Part shown: positions 799 through 60,759 of the stretch, piece by piece
Position numbering within the stretch: the first letter of the stretch is position 1
How the letters are laid out: every line of letters begins with the position of its first letter
Assembly (NCBI GenBank): GCA_026770025.1
Contig: JAMXDE010000040.1
Location: 62,001-126,000, forward strand
DNA: 64,000 nucleotides
Reading direction: 5' to 3'
DNA from: Craspedostauros australis
Taxonomy: Eukaryota; Bacillariophyta; Bacillariophyceae; Mastogloiales; Achnanthaceae
Program-made: the position numbers and the translations under genes
Notes under the pieces: generated by a model
What the model was told of the DNA's origin: nothing
The model's input: only the letters and a program-made list of their open reading frames with translations
The model's database searches: none

Positions 799-2103
799 CT
801 ATCTCGGCTCTGTATGCGCTCTTACCTCCTCGCGCCCTGGGACTGCGCTTGCTGCCGACACTTGGCCTCGCCTCTGCCCTTGGATATTGAGAGAGTATGC
901 TGCAGTGCTCCGTCCGTTTTTGTACGACCCATCGGTACTGATAACCGCCTTGCCTTGGAGCACCGCCTCCAGCCACCGCTGCTTGGACCGTCTCACCCGC
1001 GTGTTGTGCTGGTTTCCGTGGCGTCCTGCTCGGCCCCCTGTACCCACAACTCGCATTCGTTCTGGCCGCTCCCGCACATAGACCACCCTCCAGTCTTCTG
1101 GCGGCTCCTTCGCCGTTTCTCCCGATCGTACGTATTCTGCTACGCCTGAGGCCTTGCCTCCATATGCGTTCCATCGTCGCCATTTGTGTGCCTTCTCTCG
1201 CGCCCATATTATCCTTCCATCATCACTGCGTATTGCGCCGACGTTTGTGATATCCCACATCGTCCCTTGCCGTGCCGCTGTCGCTACTCGTCGGAGTGCT
1301 TGGTCCCACAACTTCCAGTCCTTTCACGGCACCTTGCCTTGCCGTGGCCAGTTGATGTGCCTCTGTCCTTGCCATTTTCCTTCATCGCTGTACTGTTGCC
1401 TGGCCATTACTCTTTGGCGGCGCTCATCAATCACGTCTGCCACGCTTACCACTTGCATGATAATGCGGCATCGGTTCAGCCGAACTTGTTGCACCCTGCT
1501 GTAGCCTTCATCGCGAAACGCTACCATGAGCCATTCATCTTTGTCTTGTGCAAGCGCTGCCGTTGCTGTCTTCTCCCGGATCCTGATGCCGCACTCGCTG
1601 GCTTCCTTCCACACGGTCTTGACCCAACATGCTGTCGCCAAGAACTCCCACTCCTTGTATCCGATCTCAAATAAGGATGTGCCCACTCCTACTTCCGTCT
1701 TCATTGCTTGTATGCTCCCTCTCATCAGCTTGCCGGTCATTGTCATCCTTTCGCCATGCTCAAGGACCATCTTCATGTGTTCCACCACTTGCGTTGTATG
1801 CAACTCATGCAGGTCTGCACCCAGCCACCCTGCTGTTGCATACGCCATTTCTCTTGGGAACCCCTTATTGAAGCCCACTTTCGACATCATAGTCTTCCAC
1901 ACTGGCTTCAAAATGCCGTTGCACTGCTCTCTTGACAATTGGGCCACCGGTAACACATACTCCAGCTTCTTCATCAGCACTGTTCGCACCGCAAATTCGG
2001 CGTCTTCCTGTCTCATGCGCCACGTTCGCACTTTCTCAACCAATTGCTCCGCTTTTTTTCCGTAGCGTTGTCTCGATCGCCGAGTCATTGCCATCCAGCG
2101 CAA
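799..2103 (-). pseudogene. ORF2 fragments of copy A: RT thumb and RNase H
   Basis: Two consecutive open stretches (1324-2103 and 799-1311, minus strand) continue the ORF2 homology after the frameshift at about 2050. They are separated by an in-frame TGA where copy B has CGC (Arg in a VPRKDW context). The second stretch contains the start of RNase H (STDGSYKNG) and then leaves frame near 800-830, where copy B continues with the catalytic Glu and Asp segments. Remaining homology to position 1 is out of frame. Both breaks are substitutions or indels relative to copy B, so this is decay rather than splicing. Confidence 0.8.
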
Positions 2104-3667
2104 GCTTCACTCCCAGTGTTTCAAACGCCTGGTGGCACCCGCTTCTTGGCATCGCCTGTGGTATCCCTGTCGTTCCCTTCATCATCAGTTCGGCTGGCGT
2201 CTCCTCGTCCGTGGCATATCTCCATGCGCCGTCCACATTCCACTTGAAATCGACAGCCCACCACATGCATTTCTCTACGACCAATGCTCCGCTAGTTGCC
2301 CTTGCTAGGCTCTCCCACGATTGCACGCTCCGTTGCATGCGTTGTATGGTTTGCTGTACATCTTCTCCATCTCGTGCGTTCACAACTAGATCTGTATCGT
2401 CCACGAATGCGTAGCCCACCATTTCGACATCCTCATTACTCACCGCAGTTCGGAAGCTGGCGGTGTGCCCTTCACTTTTCATAATGTCCAGCACTGGTGA
2501 GGAGATAACCGCCCATATTACAGGGCCCGCTCCATTCTCTTGGTAAATGCCTTGCATTGGCACCACCCACCTTTTACCGCCATATGTCAGTCTGGACTTG
2601 CTGTATGCAGTTCTGATGTAGTGCTCAAGCTGTTGGAGCGTGCTGAACATGCACACCACTTCTGACTGTGCGATTCCCTGCCGTTGCAATCCCATCGACG
2701 CCACCGTATGTACAATCCGATCGTAGCAACTCTTCAGGTCGTTAGTGCATAACACCGTTGGTATTCGTGTTTGCCTCGCCCAGTCCATTGTGAGTTGCTT
2801 CTTCAACGCATGGTCTATCGCCCGATGCCGCTTCCTGCTGCTGTACTGTTCCTCTGCGAACCCGTCTTGTTGTTCCGCTTGGTGGGCCGCCTTCCTTGCG
2901 ATCGCTTTGTTCGCAAAGTTGAAGTCAGCCTCAAAGAGAACGATTGTTCTGAGCTTATCGACTCGGAAACTATTCGCCTTCTTCATCAATTCCACATCCG
3001 TGCCTTTCCTCCACCTTTGGTATGAGTATCCGCTCACCATCGCCACCGATGTCATACTTGCTTCAAATTCCGAGTTCCCTCGGTGATATGCGATGGCCTT
3101 GAAGTGGCCGAAGTGTAACCCTGATGGTCCCGCCGATGTGTCCTCCTTGGCTTTCCTCCATCCTTGTTGGAATTCGTCTGTCGTCATTCCTGCTGGTATG
3201 CTTCTGCTTGCGACCGATTGCAACCCTGACAGAAGCTTCTTGGCACCTTCATCCACCCATTGTCGTGGCTCATACGTCCCGCTGAGCGTTTTCTCTGCGG
3301 CGTCGGTTACTCCAAGGTATCCAAACTCCTGTGCAAGCTGCCCATGCATGAATGGTGTTTCTTCTGTCTGCCGAAACCTTCGCTTGTTTTCCTCCATGCA
3401 CCCTCGCTCGATCTCCTCCTTGCCTGTTCTCTCGACCCACTGCCCATTGCTGTCGGGCGCGATCACCATCGATATCCCTGCCGTTGCGTTGTTGCCTGAT
3501 GCCATGCGTATTCTCCGATATGTCGCCCGTACTCTTTCCTTCTTCCGCAGCTGGAGTAATTGTTGTGCCGTTGCCTCTCCCGCGCTCATTTCTTGTGCGC
3601 CGCCGATGTCGTTCGCTTTCTGTTCTGCACGCTTTCTGACTTCCTCGAGTCCTCTTGCTTCCGCCAA
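2036..3667 (-). pseudogene. ORF2 fragment of copy A: reverse transcriptase core
   Basis: This is the longest open stretch of copy A, 543 codons. It covers the linker after the endonuclease, the fingers and palm of the reverse transcriptase, and the catalytic FVDD motif. It keeps the Cys of the motif-A NDLKSCYD block that is a TGA stop in copy B. It ends where a one-base insertion in a T-run shifts the frame relative to copy B, and the next fragment (1324-2103) continues in another frame. No start codon of its own is implied, since the ATG is internal to ORF2. Confidence 0.85.
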
Positions 3668-3705
3668 CCCCTCCAGTTAGAGCATGCATGTTACTCTAAG
3701 CGTCA

Positions 3706-23642: not shown

Positions 23643-26600
23643 TCATGGTGGAAGACACCGCTGCCGTACCTGCCTGCCTGCTGTACGCTGTCTCGCCGCA
23701 CGCGTCTTCCGTTTTTGCCGCCGTCCAAGCGGACTTCTGGTTCGTCGCTGTACTCCTGCCAGCCGAGCTGCCCTGACATGCCGGACCCACCGCATCTGGT
23801 TCTGCGCAGACTGCGCCCTAATCGCTACCTCTGTAGTATGAGTCAGCAGCCTGGCGTCGTCGCCGTTAATGTCCTGTGTGCCTTTGCGCCACTCGTCCTG
23901 TACCGCCTGCTCCGCTTCCCAGGAGATTTTGGCAGCCTCGACCTCAACTGCGCTTTCATGCAGCACTTTGTTGCGTGCCGTCCATGCCTTCCACCTGACA
24001 TCCCAGAGTCCTGCCATAGCTTTCGCAATCCAGTTCGCCGGTCGTCCAGGGCTATCGTTTACCAGCATAGTGGACTCCTGGATCTTCCGCCACTTTGCTG
24101 ACCACCTTCCTCGCACTAGCATGCCCCAACCCATCTCCGCTTGTTCCTCGACTGCCTTCCTCAACCATGGGCCGCCGTCGACAGAGACTGTCTTCCCCTC
24201 GCTCCATGCGCGCACCTGCCGCACTAGCTCTCTCACCATCATTCCATCGCCTCTCGCCGCCATCATCTGAGTTTCCCACTGCTTCAAAGCTTCGAGCCGC
24301 ACCGCTACCGCCAGTGGGTGTGCGCATTGCAACACATGGTCCGTCGTCTCCTCTTGATCGTTGCAGATGGGGCATTTGTCATTGCTCCAAAACTTCCACT
24401 TGCGCATGTTGCGCCCGACCGGCCCAAAGCTACACGCGTGTTTCGCCACCCACTTCCGCCTCGACGGCTTCAGGGTTGCCATTGCCAGCCGAGCCGCACG
24501 AACGTCGACCTTTCCTGCTTCTGCCTTTTGGAGCCTGCCTACTTTGCGTTGCCAGTGGATCGTCCGTCGCCCTTGAATGTATCTTCGTAACGTCGGCGCC
24601 ACATCCGTACACACCTTTCTCTTACCGATCCATATCGCCCATTCCTGGTGGCACATTTCTTCGTCCTCATACACCGCTGTCGCAGATTGGGCTGCTCCGG
24701 CGGCTTTGTTGACGTCGTCATTCCACACCGCATATTCATCCTGCCTCACGCCTCGGTCTCGCTCAAGCTGGTGGCCGTAGACATGTCTGTACGTCAGCTG
24801 CACTGTCAGCCTCCGCTGTATACTTCTGATTTCGCGGAGCACATCAAAGTGTTGAACCGACACGCCCACATCCCAGGTGTATTCCACAGCGTGGATCCCG
24901 GCCATTTTGTTGTCGCACGCGACGATGATCTCCTTGCCTTTCACCTCTTGACCAGCCCCGTACGCGTCTATGATTGTCTCCACCTTCCGTAGCGCTTGGA
25001 GGATGCCGCCTATCTCGGCTCTGTACGCGCTCTGCACATCTTCTCTCCCTGGGACTGCACCTGCCGCCGACACCTGGCCTCGCCGCTGCCCCTTGATATT
25101 GAGAGAGTATGCCGCAGTGCTCCGCCCATTTTTGTACGATCCATCAGTACTGATGACCGCCTGGCCTTGGAGCACTGCCTCCAGCCACCGTTGTTCTGAC
25201 TGTCGCATCCGCATGTTACGTTGTACTCCTTGGCGTCCTGCTCGGCCACCTGTGCCCACCACTCGCAGTCGTTCTGACCGCTCCCTCAGGTAGACGACCC
25301 TCCAGTCGTCTGGCGGCTCTTTTGTCACTTCTTCCGATCGCACGTATTCTGCCACGCCTGAGGCGTTGCCACCATGTGCGTTCCATCTTCGCCATTCGTG
25401 CGTATTCTCTCGTGCCCATATCATCCTTCCATCATCACTGCGTATTGCGCCGACGTTTGTGATATCCCACATCGTCCCTTGCTGTGCAGCTGTCGCCACT
25501 CGTCGTAGTGCTTGGTCCCACAACTTCCAGTCCTTGCGCGGCACCTTGCCTTGTCGTGGCCAGCTGATGTGCCTCCGTCCTCGCCATTTGCCTTCATCGC
25601 TGTACTGTTGCCTGGCCACCACTCTTTGACGGCGCTCATCAATCACATCTGCCACACTTACCACTTGCATGATAATTCGGCATCGGTTCAGACGGATTTG
25701 TTGTATCCTGCTGTAGCCTGCACCGCGAAATGCTACCATGAGCCATTCATCGTTGTCGTGTGCAAGTGCTGCCGTTGCTGTCTTCTCCCGGATCCGGATG
25801 CCACATTCGCTGGCTTCCTTCCACACGGTCTTGACCCAACATGCTGTCGCCAAGAACTCCCACTCCTTGTATTCGATTTCAAATAAGGATGTCCCCACTC
25901 CCACTTCCGTCTTCATTGCTTGTATGCTCCCTCGCATCAGCTTGCCCGTCATGGTCATCCTCTCGCCGTGCTCGAGGACCATCTTCAGGTGTTCCACCAC
26001 TTGTGTTGTGTGTAGCTCATGCAGGTCCGCTCCTAGCCACCCCGCTGTTGCATACGCCATTTCTCTTGGAAACCCCTTATTGAAGCCCACTTTCGACATC
26101 ATAGTCTTCCACACCGGTTTCATAATGCCGTTGCATTGCTCTCTTGACAATTGGGCCACCGGTAGCACATACTCCAGCTTCTTCATTAGCACTGTTCGCA
26201 CCGCAATTTCAGCATCCTCCTGCCGCATGCGCCACGTTCGTACTCTCTCAACCCACTGCTCCGCTTTTCTCCGTAGCGTTGTCTCGATCGCCGAGTCATT
26301 ACCATCCGGTGCGAGCTTCACTCCCAGCGTTTCGAACGCCTGATGGCACCCGCTTCTTGGCATCTCCTGTGGTATCCCTGTCGTCCCCTTCATCATCAAC
26401 GCAGCTGGCGTCTCCTCGTCAGTGGCATATCTCCATGTGCCGTCCGCATTCCACTTGAAATCGACGGCCCACCACATGCATTTCTCCACGACCAATGCTC
26501 CGCCTGTCGCCCTTGCTAAGCTCTCCCATGATTGTATGCTCTTTTGCATTCGTTGTATGGTTTGCTGTACATCTTCTCCGTCTCGTGCATTCACAACTAG

Positions 26601-29405
26601 ATCTGTGTCGTCCACGAATGCATAGCCCACCATCTCAACGTCCTCATTGCTCACCGCGGTTCGGAAGTTGGCTGTGTGCCCTTCTCGTTTCATAATGTCC
26701 AGCACTGGTGAGGAGATAACCGCCCATATTACAGGGCCCGCTCCATTCCCTTGGTAAATGCCTTGCATTGGCACCACCCACCTTTTACCGCCATACGTCA
26801 GTCTAGACTCTCCGTATGCGGTTCTGATGTAGTGCTCAAGCTGTTGGAGCGTGCTGAACATGCACACCACTTCTGACTGTGCGATTCCCTGTCGTTGCAA
26901 TCCCATCGAAGCCACCGTGTGTACGATCCGATCGTATCAACTCTTCAGGTCGTTAGTGCATAACACCGTTGGTATTCGTGTTTGCCTCGCCCAGTCCATT
27001 GTGAGTTGCTTATTCAGCGCATGGTCTATCGCCCGATGCCGCTTCCTGCTGCCGTACTGCTCCTCCGCGAACCCGTCTTGTTGTTCTGCTTGGTGGGCTG
27101 CCTTTCTTCCAATCGCTTTGTTCGCAAAGTTGAAGTCAGCCTCGAAGAGGACGATGGTTCTGAGCTTATCGACTCGGAAACTGTTCGCCTTCTTCATCAG
27201 TTCCACATCCGTGCCTTTCCTCCACCTTTGGTAGGAGTAGCCGCTCACCATCGCCACCGATGTCATACTTGCTTCAAATTCCGAGTTCCCTCGGTGATAT
27301 GCGATGGCCTTGAAGTGACCGAAGTGTAGCCCTGATGGTCCTGCTGATGTGTCCTCCTTGGCTTTCCTCCATCCTTGTTGGAATTCTTCTGTCGTCATTC
27401 CTGCCGGTATGCTTCTGCTTGCGACTGATCGCAACCCTGCCAGAAGTTTCTTGGCACCTTCGTCGACCCATTGCCTTGGCTCGTACGTCCCGTTGAGCGT
27501 TTTCTCGGCTGCGTTGGTTACTCCGAGGTATCCGAATTCCTGCGCAAGCTGCCCATGCATGAATGGTGTTTCTTCTGTCTGCCGAAACCTTCGCTTATTT
27601 TCCTCCATGCACCCTCGCTCGATCTCCTCTTTGCCTGTTCTCTCGACCCACTGCCCATTGCTGTCGGGCGCAATCACCATCGATATCCCTGCCGTTGCGT
27701 TGTCGCCCGCGGCCAAGCGTATTCTCCGATATGTTGCCCGTACTCTTTCCTTCTTCCGCAGCTGGAGTAATTGTTGTGCCGTTGCCTCTCCCGCGCTCAT
27801 TTCTTGTGCGCCGCCGACGTCGTTCGTTTTCTGTTCTGCCCGCTTTCTGACTTCCTCGAGTCCTCTGGCTTCCGCCAGACCCTCCAGCCAGTTCTCCCGT
27901 GCATTCGTCGCTCGCCCTCGAAACTGCTTCAGCTCCATATATGCCTCCGCTTGTTCCTTGTCCACTTCGTCGCTGCCACATCTCATGAGTTCCTTCACTC
28001 TCCTTGCTTCTCCCGCCCGTTTCGCCAGTCTTGTCATCATCGTCGAGGAGATATTGGCTCCCTTCCTTTTCCTCACCACATTATTCCACAATCCGATGCG
28101 TGCCTCGATTCTTTTGTATTCTCTGGAATACGGAATGCCTCCCATCCGTAGTCTGCGGCACTTCTCGTCGGCTTTCCAAATTCCTTCTACTCTTATCCTG
28201 TCGAGTGCTTCCGCTTCCTTCTCCATCCCCGCTGTCCAAGTTTCCTTTGCGGCCTTCTCCAACCTGAATGCTCTCGATCTCGCTTTGTGCTGTCGCAAAT
28301 AAGTCGCGTATGCCTCGTTGAATTTTTCCACGATTCTTGGATCTTCCGTCTTCACTCTTCTCGTCACTGCCTTGCGGAGTGCTGGCATCGATTGTCCAAG
28401 CACTGCCACCATGCTGATATCGATCCACAGGCATCGGTGATCAGCCTGTCTTAGCTGTATTCCTTCGTCCCAATCGCTCATGCCTGCTCCTTCAATCCGT
28501 ACTCCTGCTGTTGCGAATATTCCGTCTATGGGTACTTTGCCCAGTCGGTGTGTCGGTAGCCTGCTGACGTCCTTGCCTGCCCATTCCATGGTGTTGTTGA
28601 GTCCTGTGTTCTCTCTGAATTCGCGCATCGTTGTTGAGCCCGTATCCTCGTTGCAATCCATCGCCACAACGATATGGTCCCCCTCTGTTCTCCATGCCCG
28701 GATCGCTCTCTGCAGATCTTCTATCATCGCTATTCGTGGTTCTCTATCCTTCCTTTTCTCGTTGAAGTATCGCCGATGTTGTGCATGTGTGTTGAGGAAC
28801 CCCTTGCTTCTTGGCCGACATGGCCGATATGCCACTACAACTCGAAGCGTCTGTTGGTTCGCCCCTCGGTATCTCTGCCATACCCACCGCCCCAGTTTGG
28901 TCGGGTCTTCTCCTTGGCCCATGATTCTAATTGCGACCTGAAATCTACTGATCATCGCCACTCCTCCCCACTGCTTGCTTTCTGTCGCCTCGCTCGTTCG
29001 ATTGTTTGCTGTTTTCGCAACCGTCGTCCCTGTTGGCCACCATTCTTGCGTTCGGCCTTTCAGCGTATACTCCGCTGATGTCGTCCTCCAATCCACATTC
29101 ACCTCGGTAATCCCAAACACGTCGAACTCCCCTTCATTCATCCACCTCTTCAGTCCTTCGTCCACTGCTCCCGGTCGTCTGCCCAACCCTCCGAAGTTCT
29201 GCACTCCTATCCGCAGCTGTCCTTCTTGCTTCCTTAGCATTCTCCTCCTCACCCTGTTCGTCCGTCCACCCTCATTCGTCTCCCTTCGTCTTCCGCGGTC
29301 GGTCTGTTGCGGTATAACCTCCCGATCCGCGGGCGCTTGTTGTGGGCTCAGAGTCTTCCGCCGTGCTGCCACCGGCTGTTGCTCTTGCCCTTCCTGTCTA
29401 ACCAT
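23643..29405 (-). pseudogene. ORF2 polyprotein of copy B: endonuclease, RT, RNase H, one in-frame stop
   Basis: 1920 codons read in one frame except for a TGA at 26937-26939. The N-terminal part has the AP-endonuclease-like motifs QNFGGLG, GITEVNVDW, WGGVAMISR, VAMDCNEDTGS, PIDGIFAT and a DHRCLWIDI catalytic end. The RT has GPSGLHFGHFKA, PTVLCTNDLKS(stop)YD, GIYQGNGAGPVIWAV and GYAFVDDTD. RNase H follows with STDGSYKNGR, a Glu in YRAEIGG and CDNKMAG. The C-terminus has a CPIC..HVLQC zinc motif. In copy A the stop position is TGC (Cys), so the TGA is a single-base mutation in RT motif A of an otherwise intact frame. The start ATG overlaps the ORF1 stop (ATGGTTAG). Confidence 0.88.
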
Positions 29406-30636
29406 TCGCCGGGTCCCCTCTCGGTTCCCCCGCTCTTTGCTCTTCGTGCGCCTCTTCCCGGTCGTCGCCCGTTCCGATGGTTTGTGTTATGCACTGGACC
29501 GTTGGTGGTCTTACGTCCGTTCCGGTTGCGCGCGACTTTCCTGCCGCTTTAAGCGCTTCATTCTCCTCCTTTGTTGTCACCACCAAGTGCTTGAGCTCCT
29601 CCATTTGCTGCTGCATTGCCGCCATCATTGCTCTTGTCGTTCCCGTTGTCCATCCCGTACTTCCTGACAGTGTTGACGTCACCGACCCTTGCGCCTGTGC
29701 CTCCAATATTTTTCCCATCTGCTCTTGCAACGCTGCCATCTTGTCTCTCTGCGTGCCTGACGTACTCCGGCTTGCCCCCGTAATGGTCGATGTTGTTGAC
29801 CCTTCGTCTTCTCTTGCTTGCTGTGCTGCTTTTCGTTTTGCACTGCGTTTCTCACGGACCTGTCGCCATGCCCGTGTATCCCGCATGGAGGGTATAGTAT
29901 CTTCGTCTCCATAGTCCTTCTCTTGCCTCACAGTGATCCCTCTTTCCGCTTCTTGCTCTTCATCGTCATCCTCTTCGCCTTCGGTTGTCTGGAAATGCAT
30001 GTCCTCATCCACTGCCATTGCTGCTTCCACTTCTTTGTCTTTCTCGGATATCACCCTCTTCGTTGTTGCGTCCCATTTCATCGTCTTGGCTTCGACCCTG
30101 GCCATGGACGTGAAAAGCCTTTCCACTTCCTCGCCATAGTCGGCTGTAAGTTTGACCAGCAGCCCTTTCACCACCATCCTTGCTTCCGCCGTCTTCTCAG
30201 GGTGAAACTGTAGCACGTACCCGTTGCCTCTCCACTGTTTGTCAATCGATGTGAAGAGGGGCGTCTTGACGTTGCCCGTCGTCGACTTGATCTTCATCAC
30301 CATTTCTCTGAGCGTCCGATTGGTGCCGTCCGGTATCTCATGCAGACATTCTGGTATGATGTCATAGGTTGTCATTGCCACTGCATGTAGACACCATTCC
30401 ATTTGCCGCTCCCGCAGTTCAAACCACCCTTTCCTCATGTCCGTGTTGACGATTCCCGACAGTGGCGTGATGATTCTCATCCTCACCCCAAGAGGGAACT
30501 TCTTGGATTTCGTGCTGTAGTAGACTTCCAACACTTTGGCCACCAATGCTCTGTCGTCGGTGCTTGATTCGACGTGGAGTGCCCTCGGATCCTTTTTTTG
30601 TGTCCCTGGTGGGGTCGTACTTCTCGCCGTCTGCAA
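29398..30636 (-). CDS. Non-LTR element ORF1, downstream frame
   Basis: A 412-codon frame that continues ORF1 after an A7 run (T7 on the plus strand at 30593-30599). Its real coding part starts at PRALHVESSTDDRALVAKVLEVYYSTKSKKFPLG; the codons before that are a shadow of the upstream frame. It contains a charged middle with acidic runs (EGEEDDDEEQEAERG) and two short repeats of an 'MMAAMQQQMEELKHL / KMAALQEQMGKILEA' type, likely coiled coil for multimerisation. Removing one A from the run would fuse it to the upstream frame. It has no known enzymatic motif, and a nucleic-acid-binding, gag-like role is inferred from its position. Confidence 0.7.
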   Translation of the reverse strand: MQTARSTTPPGTQKKDPRALHVESSTDDRALVAKVLEVYYSTKSKKFPLGVRMRIITPLSGIVNTDMRKGWFELRERQMEWCLHAVAMTTYDIIPECLHEIPDGTNRTLREMVMKIKSTTGNVKTPLFTSIDKQWRGNGYVLQFHPEKTAEARMVVKGLLVKLTADYGEEVERLFTSMARVEAKTMKWDATTKRVISEKDKEVEAAMAVDEDMHFQTTEGEEDDDEEQEAERGITVRQEKDYGDEDTIPSMRDTRAWRQVREKRSAKRKAAQQAREDEGSTTSTITGASRSTSGTQRDKMAALQEQMGKILEAQAQGSVTSTLSGSTGWTTGTTRAMMAAMQQQMEELKHLVVTTKEENEALKAAGKSRATGTDVRPPTVQCITQTIGTGDDREEAHEEQRAGEPRGDPANG

Positions 30637-44157: not shown

Positions 44158-46113
44158 ATGTCGTTCGCAGCAGCAATCAGCCGACGGGCAACTCAGACCT
44201 TTGCCCGAAAGGGCGCGCGGTCCTTGGCCTCCCAAGCTGAGGTCCTTGCCGGAAGCGGGTGCGTAGCTTGGATCATCTTGTCTTTGGCGTGCGCGATCTT
44301 CATTTTCGTATTCGTACAACTTCAATTTATGTATTCCAACTCACAAAATACTGTACTCTTGCTCTGTTCCAACTCGTGATACACGCTGCCGGACACAACA
44401 ACATCATCATCGGCGATCATCTTCCTGGCAACAACAATGATGACGACGATGATCATGTGGACCTTTGCAATCAAACGTCGCTGACGTTTTGACTCGCATG
44501 TGGTGTGCAACGACAACGCGAAATGCAATTTGCATCATGCAAAACGCCAACGAACTAAAACAACCCATCAACATCATCTTATGCTCCTCCCATCATGACG
44601 GTGGTGCCTTTGATTGACCACTGGACGAACAACTATGGCACGACAATCGACAATACCCATACCCATTGCAACTGATTGAAACCTACGTATTGTAATGGAA
44701 CCAACACAACGCAACTCAATTGATAATCGCAGAGCGTACGGAGGTCTTTCCGACCAGGACAGAATATTCACAAATCTATACGGAGAGCAGGATTGGCGTT
44801 TGAAGGATGCCTTGACTCGCGGAGACTACCACCTCACCAAGGAGATCATGTGGATGGGACCCGACTGGATCGTCCAGGAGATCAAGGACTCCGGACTTCG
44901 CGGACGCGGCGGAGCTGGATTCCCATCCGGGTTGAAGTGGAGTTTCATGCCCAAGGAGACCGATGGCCGTCCATCCTTCCTTGTTGTCAACGCTGACGAG
45001 TCCGAGCCGGGAACCTGCAAGGATCGCGAGATCATGCGCAAGGACCCGCACAAGCTCGTCGAAGGATGTCTGCTCGCTGGTTTCGCCATGCGTGCTCGTG
45101 CTGCGTACATCTACATCCGCGGAGAATACTTCAACGAAGCCGTTGTGCTCGATGAGGCGATCCACGAGGCGTACGAGGCCGGCCTTCTCGGCAAAAACGC
45201 CTGCGGATCCGGATACGACTACGACATCTACCTCCACCGCGGAGCAGGTGCCTACATCTGCGGTGAGGAAACCGCCCTCATCGAGAGTTTGGAGGGTCGT
45301 CAGGGAAAGCCACGCCTCAAGCCACCGTTCCCAGCTGGCGTCGGCGTCTTCGGTTGCCCAACCACTGTCACCAACGTCGAGACCATCGCTGTTGCCCCCA
45401 CCATCCTGCGTCGTGGCGCTTCCTGGTTCGCTTCGTTCGGAAACGAGAACAACCGTGGAACCAAGCTCTTCGGCATCTCCGGACACGTCAAGAGTCCCAA
45501 GGTCGTCGAGGAGAGCATGTCCATCCCACTGCAGGAGCTTATCGAGAAGCACTGCGGCGGCATGAGGAACGGATGGAACTCACTGCAGGCATGCATCCCC
45601 GGAGGTTCCTCCGTCCCAGTGCTCAACAGGGACCAGTGCGACGAGGCCCTCATGGAGTTCGACGATCTCCGCTCCAAGGGATCCGGTCTGGGTACCGCCG
45701 CTGTGACCATGTTCGACGACTCCGTCGACATGGTCGGTGCCATCCGCCGTCTCTCCCACTTCTACAAGCACGAATCGTGCGGACAGTGCACACCCTGCCG
45801 TGAGGGAACCTCCTGGCTGGAGGACGTCCTCATCCGCATGGAGAAGGGCGACGCCGACAAGCGCGAGATCCCGATGCTCGAGGAGATCTCCCGCCAGATC
45901 GAAGGACAGACCATCTGCGCTCTCGGAGATGCCGCCGCCTGGCCCGTCCAGGGCCTCCTGCGTCACTTCAAGAAGAACATCGAGGACCGCATCGACAACC
46001 CAGACAGCTTCGATGCCGAGGCTGCCTTCCAGAAGTCATGGAGCGGAGACCCGTTCGCCAACGACGAGTGGGTCAAGGAGCACGGCGACGGATTGGCGTA
46101 CTCCAAGGCCTAA
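44158..46113 (+). CDS. NDUFV1: NADH:ubiquinone oxidoreductase 51-kDa (flavoprotein 1) subunit
   Basis: Two exons, 44158-44258 and 44733-46113. The 474-bp intron has a GG|GTGCGT donor and an ATCGCAG acceptor, phase 2. The product is 493 residues. Exon 1 supplies the mitochondrial presequence ([19 protein letters not shown]). The mature part starts [15 protein letters not shown] and carries the NADH/FMN-binding [32 protein letters not shown] and [15 protein letters not shown], and the N3 4Fe-4S ligands in [12 protein letters not shown] plus the later Cys in TICALGDAA. All key residues are present and the length is normal. It is the NADH-oxidising entry point of complex I. Codon use is strongly biased to C-ending codons, which suggests high expression. 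A start at 44695 would lose the presequence. Confidence 0.96.
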
Positions 46114-48950: not shown

Positions 48951-49613
48951 CTGTTCCAAACAGAATCACAATCAAGCGGATTCGAAGGCACAACTCCAAC
49001 GTTCGCCAGCACCACCTTGCACTGTCAGCACGACTTTGGCAGCGAGATAATTATGACATTGACGTAAACGTTGACGATTTGGCGATGGCGATACGAGTGT
49101 TCGTACAAGAGTAAAGAGCTATTAGCACCATACTGCGCTACATATACAACACATGTCATATCTCCTTGTAGCTCTACCCCTTCATGGTCGTACTCTATGA
49201 CTCGAGTCTCTCCGTTGCAAAGACTAACCATGCGTATATCAGCCCCAATGGACTTGCGCCTGCAACGTCCAAGATCCGAGTACTCTGCGGTTGCACCCTC
49301 CGATCATCCGGAGAATAGTAGAAGTCCAACGCCACGAGAAAATCCAATTGTCACATTACTACTTGTCATCGTATCCGTCTTGCCATCATCCGTTTCTCCA
49401 ACCACCACGATCACCATTCATCGCATCCATGTCGACAAAAAAACGAAATGAGACATCACACATCAACATCGCACCCAAAAGATCACAAGAGGGTTCATCA
49501 TCTCACATTTACAACATCGGGCTCAAAATGATTGCTCATCCCCAAACTCCACCATCTCAGGCATCAATCGCCTTGGCATCTGCAGGAGCCTGAACCGCGC
49601 AATTACTTGTGCC
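48951..49613. other. Intergenic region between the PsbP-family gene and PWP2
   Basis: About 660 bp. No recognisable gene or structured repeat. Confidence 0.45.
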
Positions 49614-52600
49614 ATGAAGTTCAATTACAAGCTGCATCGTCTTTGCGGTGCCTACTACGGTCATCCCACAGCCAGCGACAATCTTGGATCCGGAGGCAGG
49701 GGCAACGGGTCCAACCTCGTCTACACGTCCAATGGCAACACCTTGATCTCAGCCGTGTCCAACCGTGTCCAGATCCTTGATCTGCACTCCCACACGGTCC
49801 GCACTCTCCCCATCGAGGCCCGGTCCAACATATCCTGCCTCGTGCTGTCCCCAAATGATACCCTCCTGATCGTTGTTGACGTTCGGAACTGCGCCATGCT
49901 CATCAACTTCAAGCGCGGCGTAGTCCTGGAACGTTTCAACTTCAAACGGAAGGTCCGCCACATCGTCTTCTCCCCCTGCGGCAAGTACTTCGCCGTCACG
50001 GTGGGCAAGCAGGTGCAGGTGTGGTGCACTCCCAACCACCTGCGCAAGGAGTTCGCCGGCCTCGTCAGCCACAGAACGTACACGGGCCAATCCGACGACA
50101 TCGTGCATCTGGAATGGAGCACGGACTCGTCGGTTCTGATGGGTGCCAGCAGAGATTGCACCGTCAGAATATGGACCGTGCACACCACCCTCAACTACGT
50201 CCCCGTCACGCTCAGCGGTCACAGGACCCCCGTGGTCGGTGCCTACTTCACTTACAACCAGAACAAACGCATTGACGGGTGCTACACCATCAGCCAAGAC
50301 GGCGCGCTCGTCACGTGGGACCTTGAACAAGACAAGGCCAACAACAACAATAACAACAAGGATGGCACCAGCGGCTTCCCGACCGAAGACATCGACGCCC
50401 CACCAGCTGACTTCACTGCCAAGGTGGACCAGGCCGTGGACTTCTTCTCTGGTGGCGCGCCATCTTCCGCTAACGCGCTGCCCTTCGGATCGTCCGGGGA
50501 CAGTGCCGGCGCTCACAGGCACCAATCGAACCACCTGGTCAATGCCAAATGGTCCGTCAAGTCTCGCCATTACTTCAAGCAGGATGGTGCCGACACGATG
50601 ACCACGTCCTACTCGAGGCACTCCCAGATTCTCGCAGTCGGATTTTCATCGGGAATCTTCGGTCTTTACGAAATGCCATCCGTCTCCAACATCCACACGC
50701 TGTCAGTCGGCTCAGACCAGCTCATCCGGTGCTGTGAGCTCAACGAGAGCGGGGAATGGCTGGCGTTGGGATGTCCGTCCTCGCAGCAACTCCTCGTGTG
50801 GGAGTGGCGCTCCGAAAGCTACATCCTCAAGCAACGCGGCCACGCCTACGGGATGCGATGCATGTCGTACTCACCGGATGGTGTGGTCGTCTGCACCGGT
50901 GGCGATGATGGCAAGATCAAGCTGTGGAACGCTACCAGTGGCTTCTGCTACGTCACAATGGAACAGTCGCATCAAGCAGCCGTCACGGCAGTTTGCTTCG
51001 CCAACTCCAGTGTCGTGCTCAGCGCGGGCCTGGACGGTACAGTGCGAGCGCACGACCTGCACAGATACAGGACCTTCAAGACATTCACCTCCCCCAAGCC
51101 CACGCAATTCGTCAGCTTGGCGGTCGATCCCAGCGGAGAGATCGTGACGGCCGGATCCATGGATCCCTTCCACGTCTACGCCTGGAACTTGCAAACCGGC
51201 AAGCTCCTGGATGTCTTCACAGGCCACCAAGGTCCCGTAATCAACCTTGGCTTCCAAGCCACGGGAGGCATCTTGGCCAGCGCCTCTTGGGACGGCACGG
51301 TGAAGCTCTGGGACTTGTACAAGGGCGACGTCCCAACAGAGAGCCTGCAGCACGCCACGGACGTGGTCTGCCTCTCCTGGCGACCCGACGGCAAGGAGAT
51401 CTGCACCGGCACCATCGGTGGCCTCCTCAGCTTCTGGGACGTGGAGTCCGCCAAGCTTAAATTCGAGATCGACGGACGCCGCGACATCTCCGGCGGTCGC
51501 AAGATGAACGACCGCATGGCCTCCAACAACAACGCGTCGTCACGCTACTTCACTTCCATCTGCTACACAGCAGACGGCAGCTGCGTCCTCGCAGGTGGCA
51601 ACTCCAAGTTCGTCTGCATCTACGAAGTCTCCCAGCAGATGCTGCTGAAGAAGTTCCAAGTCACATACAACCGAAGTCTTGACGGAGTTCTTGATCAGGT
51701 AGGTCAACGGAAAGAACACAAATATGACTATGCATTGCATCTTTTGCGTGCATGTGCTTGTGCATGCGCACGTGTTGTTTGATTCTGCGCTGTTGCCACT
51801 TGCCTGTCCATGCTGTGTTGTCTGCCATCACCACAACATCGCATCGAACTCCATCTCGTCACATCGCATCATTCATCAGCATTCATTCAGATGCGCATGA
51901 TCCACGGCTCTGGGCATGTGCGTACGCACATCGTTGAGGAAAGAAGGAACGCGATGATCGATGACTTTCCCATAAACCGTACGCAGTAAGCAGCTGACGG
52001 GATTAGACCCCCTTTGGAGCCAATTTTAACTTCCTTGGATGTCTGAGCGTAACCTCCCAACGATACCCATGCCAACATGCCAAAGAATGGACGATGAGAA
52101 GAGATGCAATATGACGAGATGCGGCGCGGTGAAGCGCAGTCGACAATGAGACAACGGCTACAAAACGTGCTTGAACGAACGAGACGAGCTACGGACTCAC
52201 ACGCTCTATTCACTGCCTCTCTCATTTCTGCTTATCCCTGTTTCATCATGCTCTTGCTTGGATTTCACTTGCTCTTGCGTTTGAACAACTTGCGCCGTGC
52301 CACAATTGCGCAACACAGCTGAACTCTTCCAAGCTCACGCAATACGGTCCTGTGGACGACCATGCCGACTCAGGCGACGAGACGACCTACAACGCCATCC
52401 GTCTCCCAGGAGCCCGACGAGGCGACGATGGATCACGGACGAGCCGCGTTGAGGTTCTCACCTCCCAGGTGTCCTTCTCATCAACTGGTCGTGAATGGGC
52501 GGCGGTCTCCATGGAAGGTCTGCACGTGTACTCGCTGGACGATGATATGATGTTCGATCCCATCTCGTTGACGGAGGACATCACGCCGTCGCTCGTGGAA

Positions 52601-54105: not shown

Positions 54106-57100
54106 ATGAACAACTATGCTCTGCCAACGCTGGTGGAGGAGACATCAGATGACTTCAGCAAGTCCATTTCGATGTCCCTAAAGGACGGGGATTCCAACAG
54201 GCCAAGCCCCCGAACGAGTCACAACTCCACCCACAGCAACGCTGTGCCGTCTGGAATAGTCACCAACGGAGCAGCCGCCGCCGGTCATCCGCAGAACTTC
54301 ATGCGCAAGCACAAGCTCAACAGGAACTCCAGCTCTCAATCCTCCTTCGAATCCATCAACGATGGAAACGGCATCACCGCGACGACTGGCCCAGCGAACA
54401 GCGCCGCGATGCGACCTCATTTTGCATCCGCCAGTTCCGCGGATCGACAGACCGGCAATCCCAGACAAGGCGCCCGCGCCCACTCCGACAGCTTGGCGCA
54501 GCACCAGCAAGCGTACTCGCAGCAGCCGACCTCGGTGGATCAGTTAAGGCAATCGGCGGCGCACAGCGGCTACAAATCATCATCGGTGGGGAATTTGCGT
54601 CAATCAGCGGTTTCCAGACTGCAAGGGCACAAGCAACGCAGCGTGGAATCTCTGGGATCAACGACGAGCAGCAATGGCACAGCCAAGACGGGATCCGGTG
54701 GCATACTCTCTCAGGATCGCACGAAGGGGCTCTTTTCCAACCTGCGTCGATCCAGCAGCGCAACATCCGCCTTCAGTTCCACCTTGCGCAGCAGCAGCGC
54801 CTCCTCCACATCGAGGCCGTTCTCCACCTCCTTCTCGCGAGGCTCGTCCGTCTTCAAAAACCTCAAGTCGCGTTCCGCCCAGGAAGTTGAGATGCGGGAG
54901 ACACCGGACAAGAAGAGGCTCTTCCGTGGCTACAAGCTGGGAGACTACGTCCTCGTGCGATGCGGCATCCGGCAAGTCAACATGTACGGATGCCCGCCTG
55001 GCGAAGGTACCTCGTACGCCGAACGGCATGGGCCTTACGAATACGCCGTCGCCAAAGTCAAGCAGGTGCATTTTGAAGAGATTTCTGTCTACTACACTCT
55101 AACACTGGAACACAACTCAGCCGACATGCGGGGTGATGCTGGTAAGTGGACGCGAAAGCCAAAGCGAAATTGGGATTCCACTCTGTCATTCTCAGCGACC
55201 ACAATTGCATATATGTATATGCGTATGTGTGTGCGTGTGCGTGCATGGGCTCTTTGGAACCCGACTCTGCGGTACCAACTTCTATTGGACGAATTGACTT
55301 TCCCATCTCACCACATTGTGCATCAACCCAACATCACGTCGTGCAACATGAAACGCCATCATCCAATTCGCCTTCCTTCCTGTCTTCTGTTTTCTCCATT
55401 CCAGAATTGATGGAACGGATAGCGTCAAAAGAGATGGAAGAGATAGCGATACGCGCCGCCAAGGAATTCAAAGAGCAAAACCAGCGCGACCAAAACAACA
55501 AGGATTCCACATCCGACCAGAATGAAGACAGCGGTAGCAAGAAGTTCTTTGATTGTCTGTGTTACGTACTCATGTGGCCATTCCTGTGCATATACGAGAT
55601 CCTGTACTACCTCATCGGGCAGCCGGTTTATTTCGCTGGCAAGGCGATCTTCTCTTCGGCGCAACGGCAAGGTAGACTGATGCTCAACGGAATGAAACCG
55701 TACGAATTCAGCCTCCGGATGACGACGGTCAACCTCATCGTCCTCTGCAGCTCGTGGTACATGTTCATCGATCAGGCAAGGCTGGCCTTCTTCCCCATCG
55801 ACTCTGACGACACCTTGGCGCACATCAACTTCGTCATTTGGCTCATCCTCGTTTGCGAACTCCTGTTCGAGGTCTTCATCCGACCCGAGGGGTACAGCCA
55901 GCTCATCACATCGGACAAGGCATTCGCGCCTGGGACCGTCCGATTCATCAGCGGCCTCCATTTGGCGTTCGAAATCATCTCGCTCGGATTCTTCGTACCC
56001 GAATTCCTCTGCATATTCAACAACTCGACGTGCGATTCCAAGGAGAAATTCTCATTCTTCAACGCGGCGCTCATCACCATCATCAGCCCCTCGTGGGAGA
56101 AGACGCTCGGAGGTCGCGCATTCTTCGCCTGCCTCCGGTTGCGAGTCTTCGGCCTCGTGCGGCACTGGAAGAACATGTGGATCAACACCCGCTTTGTGCA
56201 GCGGAATCTGGAGATGTTCGATGGCAAGACGCAGCAAGCTTTCATGTCAGACCAGTCGCATGATGCCAGCACGGAAGTGCACGGCGACTACGCGGACGAG
56301 CACACCTTGAAGCAGCGCGAGGAACGCAACGCCCTCATGCAGAAGCAACGCGATCATGGTCTCGTCAACGCCTCGAACATTGGAACCGCCCTCATGGTCA
56401 CGAATTCGTACAGAGCGCTGATGATCGTCTGTGCCGTGATTGGATTGTTTCCCATGCTAACCACCATCTACCTCGACGGAGCATCGAACGATGCGACCAC
56501 GAAGATGGTGAAGCAGCTGCAGGAAACGAACGTTCTGGTCACGGTTGAGGAGGACGATGGCTGCAGGTTCCTCGTCGAATCCATCGAGTCATGGGTGGAG
56601 AGCTTCCAAGCACGCGATCAGTTCCTGATGTCCTCCAACACGCATAACTTCCTTTTCTCGTTGGCAATTCAACCAAGCCGATGCGTCAATGCAATCGCCA
56701 ACTCGACCACGTTGACGGACCAATACGACGTCTCCCCCAGCAAGGACTGCATGAAGCTGCTGCCATCGGATCGGATAAAAGCCGAGACGGGCAGCTGCAT
56801 GTTCATTTCGTTGCCTGCTGTCGGATCCGATCTGCAACAAAAGGCCAACTCTTTGGATTTGCGAATTGGTGCCATCGAATCGGTGCAGTCCGGGTCCTTG
56901 AACGCTGCCTTGACGTCCAGGGATAACTCAACCGAAGACGTCGTGTACGCGGTTTCGGCCAACTTCAATCAGACCTACGCCATCGAATCCTCGTAAGTTC
57001 TGTCTGTCTGTCGGCCTGTCTGGTTGTGGCATGATGTGGCGGAGTGTGATGTACCGTCTCCAGCTTGTCACAACGTCTCCATGCACAGCCAAGATTCGCT

Positions 57101-58901
57101 CGCTCACATTCCGTTGCCTTTACCTTCACCTTGCATTCTCTCTTTTCATTGGCAACAACAACAAACACAAACACATCTGCATTATTCCTCCATTTCCGAC
57201 TCGTTTCTCTGGGACATTAGAGCGCTGTTGTCATTCCTGCTGCAGATGTTCCTGCTGATTCTCGTGCTGGGTGGACTGACGGTGTTGAGGTCAGACGCCG
57301 AGACGCTGGTGCTGAACCCTCTGCGAAGTATGCTGCGCATCGTCGCCAGGTACGCGAAGAACCCGCTGACATCCGCTGACTCGTACAGGCGACGGGGATC
57401 AGCTGGCACTGAGAACAGCGATTCCGATGTCGACGACTCTCTATCTGGCGACGGTGACAACTCGGAAGGTCTGCAATTCAGCAACTACGAGACAGAGCAG
57501 TTGATTTCAGCAGTATCGAAAATCACGGACTTGCTACGCAAGTGCTGGGGTGTGGCAGGTGCTGACATCATCTCGACTAACCTGGCAACGCGCGCGGGTG
57601 CGTTTACTGAAGTATTCAATCCCACGGTGCCAGGGAGGTCGGTTTATGCTCTGTTTGCCTTCGCGGCGATTGAAGAGTTCGACCACGCGCAGAAATGTCT
57701 TGGCGGGCACGTCATGAGTCTGATCAATGACGTCGCCGCCGTGTTGCACGACGAGGTGTTCCGTTGGGGATTCGGCGACTCTGGCCAGTGCAACAAGAAC
57801 CTCGGAGGTGCCTTCCTGATGGTGTTCCGTATCGGATTGGTGAAGGAGGTCATTCAGAAGCTTGAGGAGGCCACCAACGTGGTGTTCTCCACGGCAGGGA
57901 ACAAGAAGACGAGCAAGCGAAATCGCAGCAAGGCGTTGGATCGAAGCCACCACGCATCGTTGAACGGCGGAAGATCGTCGCACAACATCTCCGGCAGCTT
58001 CCGACCGTTCGGCGCCAACAAGAAAACTCGGCGTAGCACCAAAAACAATGCGAAGAATGACACGCTGACAGAGGCCATGCAACTGTCGCTGCAGTCCCTG
58101 CCAGGTATTTCGACATTCACGGACAGAGCAGTGATCGGCATGCTGAAATCCTTCGCGGGCATCCATCGTGACGAGAAGCTGCGCCAGTGGAGCCAGGACT
58201 TCCGGCTTAGCGCTGGCGTGGGAACGTACGCGGTGAACATGGTGTTCGGCATGGACGCCGGTTGGGCCGTGGAGGGAGCGGTGGGCAGCGAGTACAAGAT
58301 CGATGCCACCTACCTGTCACCCCACGTCAACATGGCCTCGCGGATGATGAGCGCCTGCAAGCACTACGGTGTGACGATCTTGCTCAGCGAGGCGGTGCAG
58401 GAGCTCATGTCGGATGTTGCAAAATCGAAGCTGCGGAACCTAGACCGTGTGACGGTGAAGGGCAGCACCAGGGTGCAGAAGATCTTCACCTACGATGCCA
58501 GACACAAGGGTGCCAACTTCTTCTTGCTCAGTCGGCAGGATGAGCAGGCAGATATGGAGGCCGATCGGTACGTGCCGAGCATGTGGCACATGGACCAGGA
58601 CCTCACGGCGATGAGGAACCACGTGACGGATGACTTCATTAACGAGTACAGCGTGGGGCTGAAGGCCTACTACGACGGGGACTGGAAGCTCGCTATCAAG
58701 AAGCTGGAGGAAGCCAACGAGATCATGGTGGAGGACGCCATGGAAGGCGACGACATGGACGATGGACGCAACGATGAAGACGAGGATATTCGTTCCGAAA
58801 CAGCCGACGGGCCCTGCCTGTACCTCATCAACTTCATGAAGTCGAAGGGCGGCGAGGCACCGGAGGGTTGGGCTGGATGGCATCCGCTGCTCAGCAAGTA
58901 A
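54106..58901 (+). CDS. Multi-span membrane protein with a degenerate class III nucleotide-cyclase domain
   Basis: Three exons: 54106-55141, 55405-56992 and 57221-58901. Introns begin GTAAGT at both donors and end CCAG and TTAG, phases 1 and 2. The product is 1434 residues. The N-terminal about 270 residues are Ser-rich. About six hydrophobic spans follow, including four close together (VNLIVLCSSWYMFID, FVIWLILVCELLFEVFI, LHLAFEIISLGFFVPEFL) with a basic RLRVFGLVRHWKNMW segment, reminiscent of an ion-channel voltage-sensor module. After an about 190-residue loop and a last TM (FLLQMFLLILVLGGLTVL) comes a class III cyclase homology domain (about 1015-1250) with NKNLGGAFLMVF and GSEYKIDATYLSPHVNMASRM. 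Both metal-binding Asp positions are replaced: FAAIEEF for FxDI and GGAF for GDAF. It is therefore probably a pseudo-cyclase or a regulatory partner. Confidence 0.8.
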
Positions 58902-59358: not shown

Positions 59359-59784
59359 CTATGAACCAGCCTGCTGTTCCGCACCCTCGCCACCATCACT
59401 TGCCGATGCATTGGTGGGTGACATCGTCTGTCCAAATTCCCATGTCTGCCGACAGAAGGGACAGGTGTCCTTCTGATTCAACCACGTCGTGATGCACTGC
59501 AAGTGACACGCATGGCCACACTTGCCAAACACCACTGGGCATTCATCACCGGGATACTTGACGCCCGGCGCCACCCCCTCGTAGGCCGATTGGCAGATAC
59601 CGCACACCTCGTCATCGGAACCTGCATTCCAGGTCCATTTGGCCACAGCGTGGTATCGCTTGATCCGAACCCTCAGCTTGGTCTTGGGTTGCGGTCTGGC
59701 CGGAATTTCCTTCGATGTAGCCACCAAGCCGCTGGAGCTGCCCGTGGTCACGGTCGTGTCGCTCTGTCGTTTTCTCGATGCCAT
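59359..59784 (-). CDS. APC11: Anaphase-promoting complex RING-H2 subunit APC11
   Basis: 141 residues in one exon; the start at 59784 gives MASRKRQSD. An N-terminal disordered stretch is followed by LRVRIKRYHAVAKWTWNAGSDDEVCGICQSAYEG, PGDECPVVFGKCGHACHLQCITTWLNQKDTCPFCRQTW. This is the RING-H2 of APC11 with the family-specific 'W.W' and the 'PGD(D/E)CP(L/V)V(W/F)G.C.H' block and all zinc ligands. APC11 is the catalytic E3 module of the APC/C, partnering the cullin APC2 and E2 enzymes to ubiquitinate cyclins and securin. The N- and C-terminal tails (about 35 and about 20 residues) are longer than in animals or yeast. Confidence 0.94.
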   Translation of the reverse strand: MASRKRQSDTTVTTGSSSGLVATSKEIPARPQPKTKLRVRIKRYHAVAKWTWNAGSDDEVCGICQSAYEGVAPGVKYPGDECPVVFGKCGHACHLQCITTWLNQKDTCPFCRQTWEFGQTMSPTNASASDGGEGAEQQAGS

Positions 59785-60759
59785 CTCGATTTTCTTTCTC
59801 TCTCTCTCTATCTCTTTATTCCTCTCTTCTGTGTGCGAAGTCAGTGACTGGAGCACCTGTGGCTGACGTGACGATGTCAGTCGGTGCGCAACTGCTCTGG
59901 AGTAGCACAAGTCTCCACACTCTCACTTCCAAATTTTGTCCCTCTTCCTGTTGCAAATAAGCAATGGAGTAGAGGCATTTATAATAGATTATCCAACCTC
60001 CAGACGCGTGAACCTTGTCAATCAATGCTCTGTCCCAAGGATGCTGTCGACGTCATTGCATCTCTTCGATGGTGCGATGTTGAATGGAGGCAGCAAACCA
60101 ACGACGGTGCATCAAAAGAAGTTGCGGTCGTCGTTGACGAGATCGCCATTGTCATTGCTGACAGCAACATAAATATATGGTTTTATTGTATTTTACCGTA
60201 ACCTTTGATTTTGAAACTGGATTGTGACTGTTTAATGTAGTCAAATGAGTCGCTAGTGCCCATCTGCGATGTCCAAATGTCACGGTTCGAAGACGATTCG
60301 ACAGATGGGAACCGTGTATCGAGAAAGAAAAAACGCGAACACGTGCATTGCGAGCCATCAGGCATCAAACGAACACCAATCAGAAGGGAGGAGGGCGAAA
60401 AGGGAACACGACGCCTGTCCAGACAGAAGGCGAGGGAACAAAGGCGGAACGAGAAGAAACGGAACGCAACATCAACATCAACGACATCAGACGAGGTCGC
60501 ATGACGACTTCTCGTGCCAGCAGTCGTATGTACGAGGACACAGAGCAGAAGGAAGAGGAAGACAACAACGTCAACGAGCCTCGAGAGCGAAGGAAGTGAA
60601 GGGAATCTTGGCAGCAACACAAACTGTGGCACACCTGCAACCAATTCGCCCCAAGAATCATAAACTCGCTCCTGTCAAGCACATCAACAACATCAAAGAC
60701 GTGCGAGCAAACAGCAACACGCAAAACTCCACAACTTCTCTCTCCGCGCATCGATCAAC
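59785..60759. other. Divergent promoter region (APC11 / plastid protein)
   Basis: About 970 bp. A TC/CT microsatellite (about 59795-59825) sits in the APC11 leader. Plus-strand frames at 60269-60763 are Arg/Gln/Asn-rich and look like leader sequence. Confidence 0.45.

Follow-up and report, generated by a model that had tools for sequence, protein, structure and literature searches.

We analysed a 64,000-nucleotide stretch of the genome of the diatom Craspedostauros australis (GenBank assembly GCA_026770025.1, contig JAMXDE010000040.1, positions 62,001 to 126,000 of the forward strand; hereafter the window), which lies within contig C38 of an assembly of 90 contigs and 74.8 Mb, and focused on a plus-strand gene at window positions 54106–58901 that is predicted to encode a membrane-bound protein with a class III adenylyl/guanylyl cyclase-like domain. 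The gene is not one open reading frame: it comprises three predicted exons in three frames, which together code for 1,434 amino acids. In the splice model, predicted from the sequence, both introns begin with GTAAGT, finish with AG and keep all three frames in phase. Exon 1 (54106–55141) specifies a serine-rich N-terminus with no Pfam match and is followed by a predicted intron of 263 bases (55142–55404; GTAAGT...CCAG). Exon 2 (55405–56992) holds the membrane region—S1–S4-like helices, the next span, and a domain between spans—and, beyond a second predicted intron of 228 bases (56993–57220; GTAAGT...TTAG), exon 3 (57221–58901) contributes the last span, the cyclase-like domain, a C-terminal tail and the stop codon.

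The original prediction had proposed about six membrane spans with an S4-like basic segment. Hydropathy analysis returned five strongly hydrophobic regions (residues 398–416, 486–504, 526–550, 675–702, and 876–905), and the S1-like span (residues 449–468; 55713–55772), which falls below the hydropathy threshold, was placed solely by eye from the translation and a family alignment (A5). S2-like (55824–55880) and S3-like (55944–56018) spans were located by hydropathy and precede the basic segment, RAFFACLRLRVFGLVRHWKNMW (56115–56180), recognized by eye and by comparison with homologous proteins from contig C50 (see below), which is S4-like only in part. The next transmembrane span (56418–56474) is separated from the last one (57222–57278), immediately ahead of the cyclase domain, by ~170 residues (56475–56992) that are probably extracellular, judging from hydropathy, the translation, and the topology that these suggest.

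The cyclase-like domain itself (57633–58496) includes a long loop at about 57837–58112 and, when excised, is 58–59 residues longer than its C50 counterparts. Exon 3 matched PF00211 with 24.5 bits (cut-off, 21.9) over profile positions 98–177 only, and a profile built from the four family members of this genome (introduced below) retrieved photoactivated adenylyl cyclases from the PDB (top match 5mbh, E = 4.8e-11), along with CyaB and further adenylyl cyclases; the class III cyclase assignment made earlier from the letters alone was right in kind. Two codons set the domain apart. Where the first metal-binding aspartate is expected there is an alanine codon, GCG (57666–57668), and the second is replaced by a glycine codon, GGT (57807–57809). 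In the four-member alignment both codons share columns with the aspartates of FCDI and GDAF in the C50 proteins, and the family profile puts both columns opposite the two aspartates of 5mbh; alignment and codon reading thus agree with the loss first claimed. Because of these two substitutions, we did not count the window protein as a complete cyclase.

The remainder of the expected catalytic set is in place. Family and PDB alignments bear out the transition-state asparagine (58329–58331) and arginine (58341–58343) of VNMASR, which had already been recognized as retained. Also kept are the lysine of NKN at the adenine-specifying position (57795–57797), which aligns with a lysine of 5mbh; the threonine of DATY at the second base-specifying position (58308–58310), which aligns with a threonine in both 5mbh and CyaB; and the lysine of VKG at a triphosphate-contacting position (58458–58460), which is absent from the C50 genes and whose motif lines up with the VKG found in both CyaB and the photoactivated cyclase. 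Threonine may stand for aspartate at the second base-specifying position of adenylyl cyclases. The Lys/Thr pair, taken together with the PDB relatives, points to ATP as the putative substrate and hence to adenylyl-type specificity, a Lys/Asp rule having been described for the adenine-specifying positions of class III cyclases (PMC6592433).

Of the relatives returned by the genome searches, the one nearest to the window gene lies on contig C77. This paralogue shows 56% identity across exon 3 and 67% across the domain, and also carries a stretch 47% identical to the exon 2 region. It reads FGFVAINGF and NKNLGSAF, with alanine and serine where the metal-binding aspartates are expected, and keeps the same lysine, threonine, asparagine, arginine, and VKG lysine as the window gene. 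A sequencing error or a misalignment at the substituted codons was considered and rejected, since this paralogue lacks both aspartates too; an error at both codons appears unlikely. Over 308 aligned codons, the two genes differ by 0.30 nonsynonymous substitutions per nonsynonymous site (dN) and 1.63 synonymous substitutions per synonymous site (dS; near saturation). The loss is thus an old trait, common to both genes, that purifying selection has maintained. The same comparison bears on the notion of a functionless gene in decay: although catalytic residues have been lost, the exons are open and dN lies far below dS, and we give this explanation hardly any credence, less than any other considered here. 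Almost as improbable, in our judgement, is a domain that works as a homodimer, either through an atypical metal site or metal-free. Its asparagine, arginine, lysine, and threonine are intact, and an aspartate in GDSG, ahead of NKN, is common to the window gene and the C77 paralogue. However, the EEF that follows the first aspartate site in the window protein is NGF in the paralogue, so that no conserved acid nearby replaces the missing residue, and class III catalysis employs two metals held by the two aspartates (PMC6592433).

Two further homologues, L039 and L040, are neighbours on opposite strands of contig C50, and their losses mirror those of the window gene. Their metal-site motifs, FLFCDIRQF and NKNVGDAF, contain both metal-binding aspartates; VNMASR is replaced by VERAEF and VERSEF, with loss of asparagine and arginine, and VKG by FEN or LLD, with loss of the lysine. 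The base-specifying lysine and threonine are kept in these genes as well. In the C50 genes an arginine (SQRKID) stands eleven residues ahead of the V in VN, in a column where the window gene and the C77 paralogue have tyrosine (SEYKID); this may be the gamma-phosphate arginine of the metal-bearing domain, which we offer as a lead only. The two C50 genes are 69% identical over the domain (dN 0.25, dS 1.11), and 32–36% identical to the window gene over the same region. All four genes share one order of parts—last span, a linker with ET..L, domain, tail—and in the window gene the C-terminal tail (58497–58898) has columns in common with its C77 and C50 homologues (W, DG, and P; alignment A1). Protein searches of the genome with exon 3, with one C50 exon, and with one C50 domain (E up to 10), which score the best candidates only, returned the same four genes and no others: two without the metal-binding aspartates and two without the asparagine and arginine.

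Neither type by itself carries the full residue set, and one of each gives, at the level of sequence, one full active site. Two window-type chains would lack a metal site, and two C50-type chains would lack the asparagine and arginine; a mixed pair would therefore be needed for a full site. We thus consider it likely that the window gene encodes the C2-type (substrate- and transition-state-binding) subunit of a membrane-bound adenylyl cyclase that is an obligate heterodimer, and the best reading of the C50 genes is that they would encode C1-type subunits. In the proposed mechanism, the window protein would pair with a C50 protein, whose chain would bind Mg or Mn, and the joint site would turn ATP into cyclic AMP (cAMP); the S1–S4-like helices and the domain between spans would control the meeting of the two cyclase domains, and the second, pseudo-symmetric site, being inactive, could serve to bind a regulator. 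We infer binding of the chains, cAMP production by the pair, and voltage sensing from the residues and the layout described here.

From the window protein alone, the original prediction had left the choice between a pseudo-cyclase used as a nucleotide or voltage sensor and an obligate heterodimer partner. The latter is now better supported, because two homologues in the same genome carry the complementary residues. A true pseudo-cyclase—one that has no catalytic partner, binds a nucleotide or nothing, and provides the membrane part with a sensor or scaffold—would account for the missing aspartates in both the window gene and the C77 paralogue, and decayed cyclases with no evident partner do occur in this genome (for example, L051 and L062). 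Yet those two have lost asparagine and arginine, whereas the window gene keeps its substrate and transition-state residues, and its complementary homologues not only exist but are, besides the C77 paralogue, its sole relatives among the best-scoring candidates; we regard a pseudo-cyclase as unlikely, though it deserves more weight than the other alternatives.

To place the four genes among the other cyclases of the genome, we drew on at least 150 exon-level PF00211 matches (a lower bound), grouped into 127 places that include the window gene and the C77 paralogue; the C50 genes are absent from this list. The loci counted cover 90 of the 125 remaining places, with 35 outside the counts. A motif filter kept seven of the 30 seed loci (L001, L002, L005, L009, L012, L013, and L016) out of the seed profile, but these loci were scanned as well. 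The scan comprised 94 entries (93 loci and the window protein), of which 90 matched; the classification covers the 68 that could be aligned across all five key columns. Both aspartates, the asparagine, and the arginine are all kept in 61 of the 68 aligned loci and altered in seven. One of the seven, L061, was rejected as an intron artefact whose asparagine and arginine sit in a second exon match, and another, L103, may be an exon artefact, as its Pfam match starts past the first aspartate site. Catalytic-residue loss is uncommon but not rare in this genome. In L020 glutamate replaces the first aspartate, and L104, L102, L051, and L062 are more deeply altered. Decayed domains are found in L059 and L060 (contig C15), L062 (C1), and L051 (C4), with sequences such as GDAVKVAKKL and GDTVDIASEI where most other loci have GDTVNxASRM.

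Two of the altered loci, both guanylyl-type, have opposite defects: L104 (G000:C57:342259-342798) keeps both aspartates and has aspartate and serine in place of asparagine and arginine, and L102 (G000:C11:1655671-1656231) has asparagine and glutamate in place of the two aspartates and keeps asparagine and arginine. A second split pair may therefore exist. The altered cyclases cut both ways, in that pairing is a plausible habit in this genome, yet decay also occurs outside the family. In a further reading, the window protein would be a C2-type half paired not with a C50 protein but with one of the genome's many guanylyl-type cyclases. The number of PF00211 matches favours this, as does L104, in which the aspartates are kept and the asparagine and arginine are missing. 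However, 67 of the 68 aligned loci have glutamate where the four-member family has lysine and look guanylyl-type, and such loci were not among the best-scoring candidates when family members served as protein queries; we hold a guanylyl-type partner to be quite improbable.

Several observations weigh against an obligate heterodimer of window and C50 chains. After removal of the one sure and the one possible exon artefact, at least five altered cyclase loci are left in the genome, and since cyclases are altered elsewhere, decay need not mean pairing. The window gene and the C50 genes lie on different contigs, with no direct sign of contact; one C50 protein scores slightly below the PF00211 cut-off (21.5 versus 21.9 bits); a single-sequence AlphaFold model of a single chain reached a mean predicted local distance difference test score of just 37.4, too low to be of use; and the residues compared were picked after the sequences had been seen. 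Moreover, scans with alignments A4 and A7 (viral contigs and prokaryote genomes) and with A2, A3, and a KIDATY DNA pattern (viral contigs) found no family member beyond the diatom's own genome, each alignment scan resting on two short peptide patterns and thus not being exhaustive; the KIDATY pattern hit 13 stretches in the viral contigs, none of which (0/13) matched the family profile. The viral contigs did contain one membrane cyclase, the lone tblastn relative, with intact FCDIRGF and VNLASR motifs (L111; IMGVR_UViG_3300021084_000179, match 1386–1907). It looks CHASE2-like and sits beside ribonucleotide reductase-like and primase-like frames (labels assigned by eye).

Split active sites have precedents among class III cyclases. 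In mammalian C2 the two metal-site motifs read FASI and GST, against FAAI and GGA in the window protein, and an animal adenylyl cyclase chain has two sets of six spans and is not known to carry a comparable tail. The animal-type site lies between two domains, one of which binds the metals through aspartates while the other supplies the base-binding residues, asparagine, and arginine, and the unlike C1 and C2 domains of transmembrane adenylyl cyclases give rise to one working site and one degenerate one (PMC6592433); these halves are fused in one chain, whereas in the diatom they are on separate genes. In human soluble guanylyl cyclase, alpha and beta are encoded by two genes: alpha holds the metal-binding aspartates, beta holds Arg552 and Lys593 for the triphosphate, and neither subunit gives an active homodimer because the full site cannot be reassembled (PMC3591389). 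This enzyme is, however, soluble, regulated by nitric oxide and specific for GTP, whereas the diatom protein is membrane-bound with an ATP-type Lys/Thr pair. Among protists, the Toxoplasma ATPaseP-GC likewise has its metal-binding aspartates in one domain and asparagine and arginine in the other, but it is a predicted guanylyl cyclase whose two domains belong to one very long chain with a P4-ATPase, and in Toxoplasma GC1 just one of the two metal-binding aspartates is replaced, by glutamate (PMC6592433). Finally, the chytrid rhodopsin-guanylyl cyclases RGC1/2 and their partner NeoR are membrane sensor cyclases from separate genes that function only as heterodimers; they differ in sensing light and in making cyclic GMP, and the part of that report considered here does not mention a split of catalytic residues (PMC7655827). 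Thus, split-site class III cyclases are known, and a two-gene membrane adenylyl cyclase of the present layout was not found among the open-licence PMC papers listed by our searches.

The basic segment predicted at the outset is indeed present in the window chain, by eye, and is weaker than in the C50 genes. In RVFGLVRHWK, arginine, glycine, arginine, and lysine occupy every third place; L039 has four arginines so spaced (RTLRVARYVR) and L040 three. The segment looks like the S4 helix of a voltage sensor, more completely so in the metal-bearing chain. No voltage-sensor family or structure, and no Ion_trans Pfam domain, was matched when Pfam and the PDB were searched by sequence; since these searches lend no support, we put voltage sensing forward as a conjecture.

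A 2025 study of Phytophthora parasitica zoospores reports a pair of S4-plus-cyclase proteins of comparable design, from a family that occurs in stramenopiles and alveolates (PMC12223298). Both members combine an S4-bearing membrane part that has no pore helix with a C-terminal cyclase domain; they are 38.75% identical to each other and unlike any other protein of that genome; and one of them, PPTG_13136, was found mainly on one flagellum, although by the quantification in that paper it is not differentially abundant (PMC12223298). The Phytophthora proteins differ in carrying an Ion_trans Pfam domain, of which no match was found in the diatom proteins, and we liken them to the diatom genes by layout as described. 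The word 'heterodimer' is absent from the main text of that article and split catalytic residues are not discussed in the part of it considered here (PMC12223298), and among the open-licence PMC papers listed, outside which most subscription papers fall, we found no report of complementary halves in the S4-plus-cyclase family.

According to the same study, only organisms with flagella or cilia possess the family (PMC12223298). In the diatom genome, two dynein-heavy-chain domains gave one match each, in the same long frame (contig C11:1049974-1056567), and IFT46 and IFT57 had no match; the controls of all these searches were prokaryotic, none was a positive control, and the counts are minimum values. 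The diatom seems to lack axonemal dynein, which suggests that it has no flagella, since one dynein heavy chain is unlikely to suffice for a motile axoneme. If so, and provided that the diatom genes belong to the family, the latter would not be tied to flagella, contrary to what is stated for it (PMC12223298). We tentatively propose, as a possibility on which we lean towards doubt, a two-gene, membrane-potential-gated adenylyl cyclase of stramenopiles, and perhaps alveolates, whose C1-type chain would carry the metal site together with a complete S4, and whose C2-type chain would carry the substrate site together with a weaker S4. Its origin would be independent of the C1/C2 fusion in animals, and it would function even where a diatom has no flagella.

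As for the surroundings of the gene, the window contains several housekeeping-like neighbours: an NADH dehydrogenase 51K subunit (44680–46110, plus strand), a WDR3-like WD40 protein (49452–51779, plus strand), and an APC11-like RING protein (59362–59910, minus strand). A probable retroelement of the long interspersed nuclear element type lies on the minus strand at 23646–29486, with an Exo_endo_phos match (26940–29486) and a weak zf-RVT match (23646–26936), and a further weak, sub-cut-off reverse-transcriptase match was seen at 2039–3673. Genome-wide, we recorded 61 light-harvesting-protein matches and a large silicic-acid-transporter family of 88 matches, 32 of which span at least 483 of 513 model positions; four of these 32 have in-frame stops. 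Both sets of matches fit a diatom genome.

Split sites in class III enzymes have so far comprised the fused animal adenylyl cyclases, soluble guanylyl cyclase, and the fused apicomplexan guanylyl cyclases; if our proposal is true, a two-gene membrane adenylyl cyclase would be a further instance of this solution. Genes of this kind should be annotated neither as dead nor as complete cyclases. A heterodimer could also explain why a protist S4-plus-cyclase family has two unlike members within one genome and, if true, would offer a possible electrical input to cAMP that is open to experiment.

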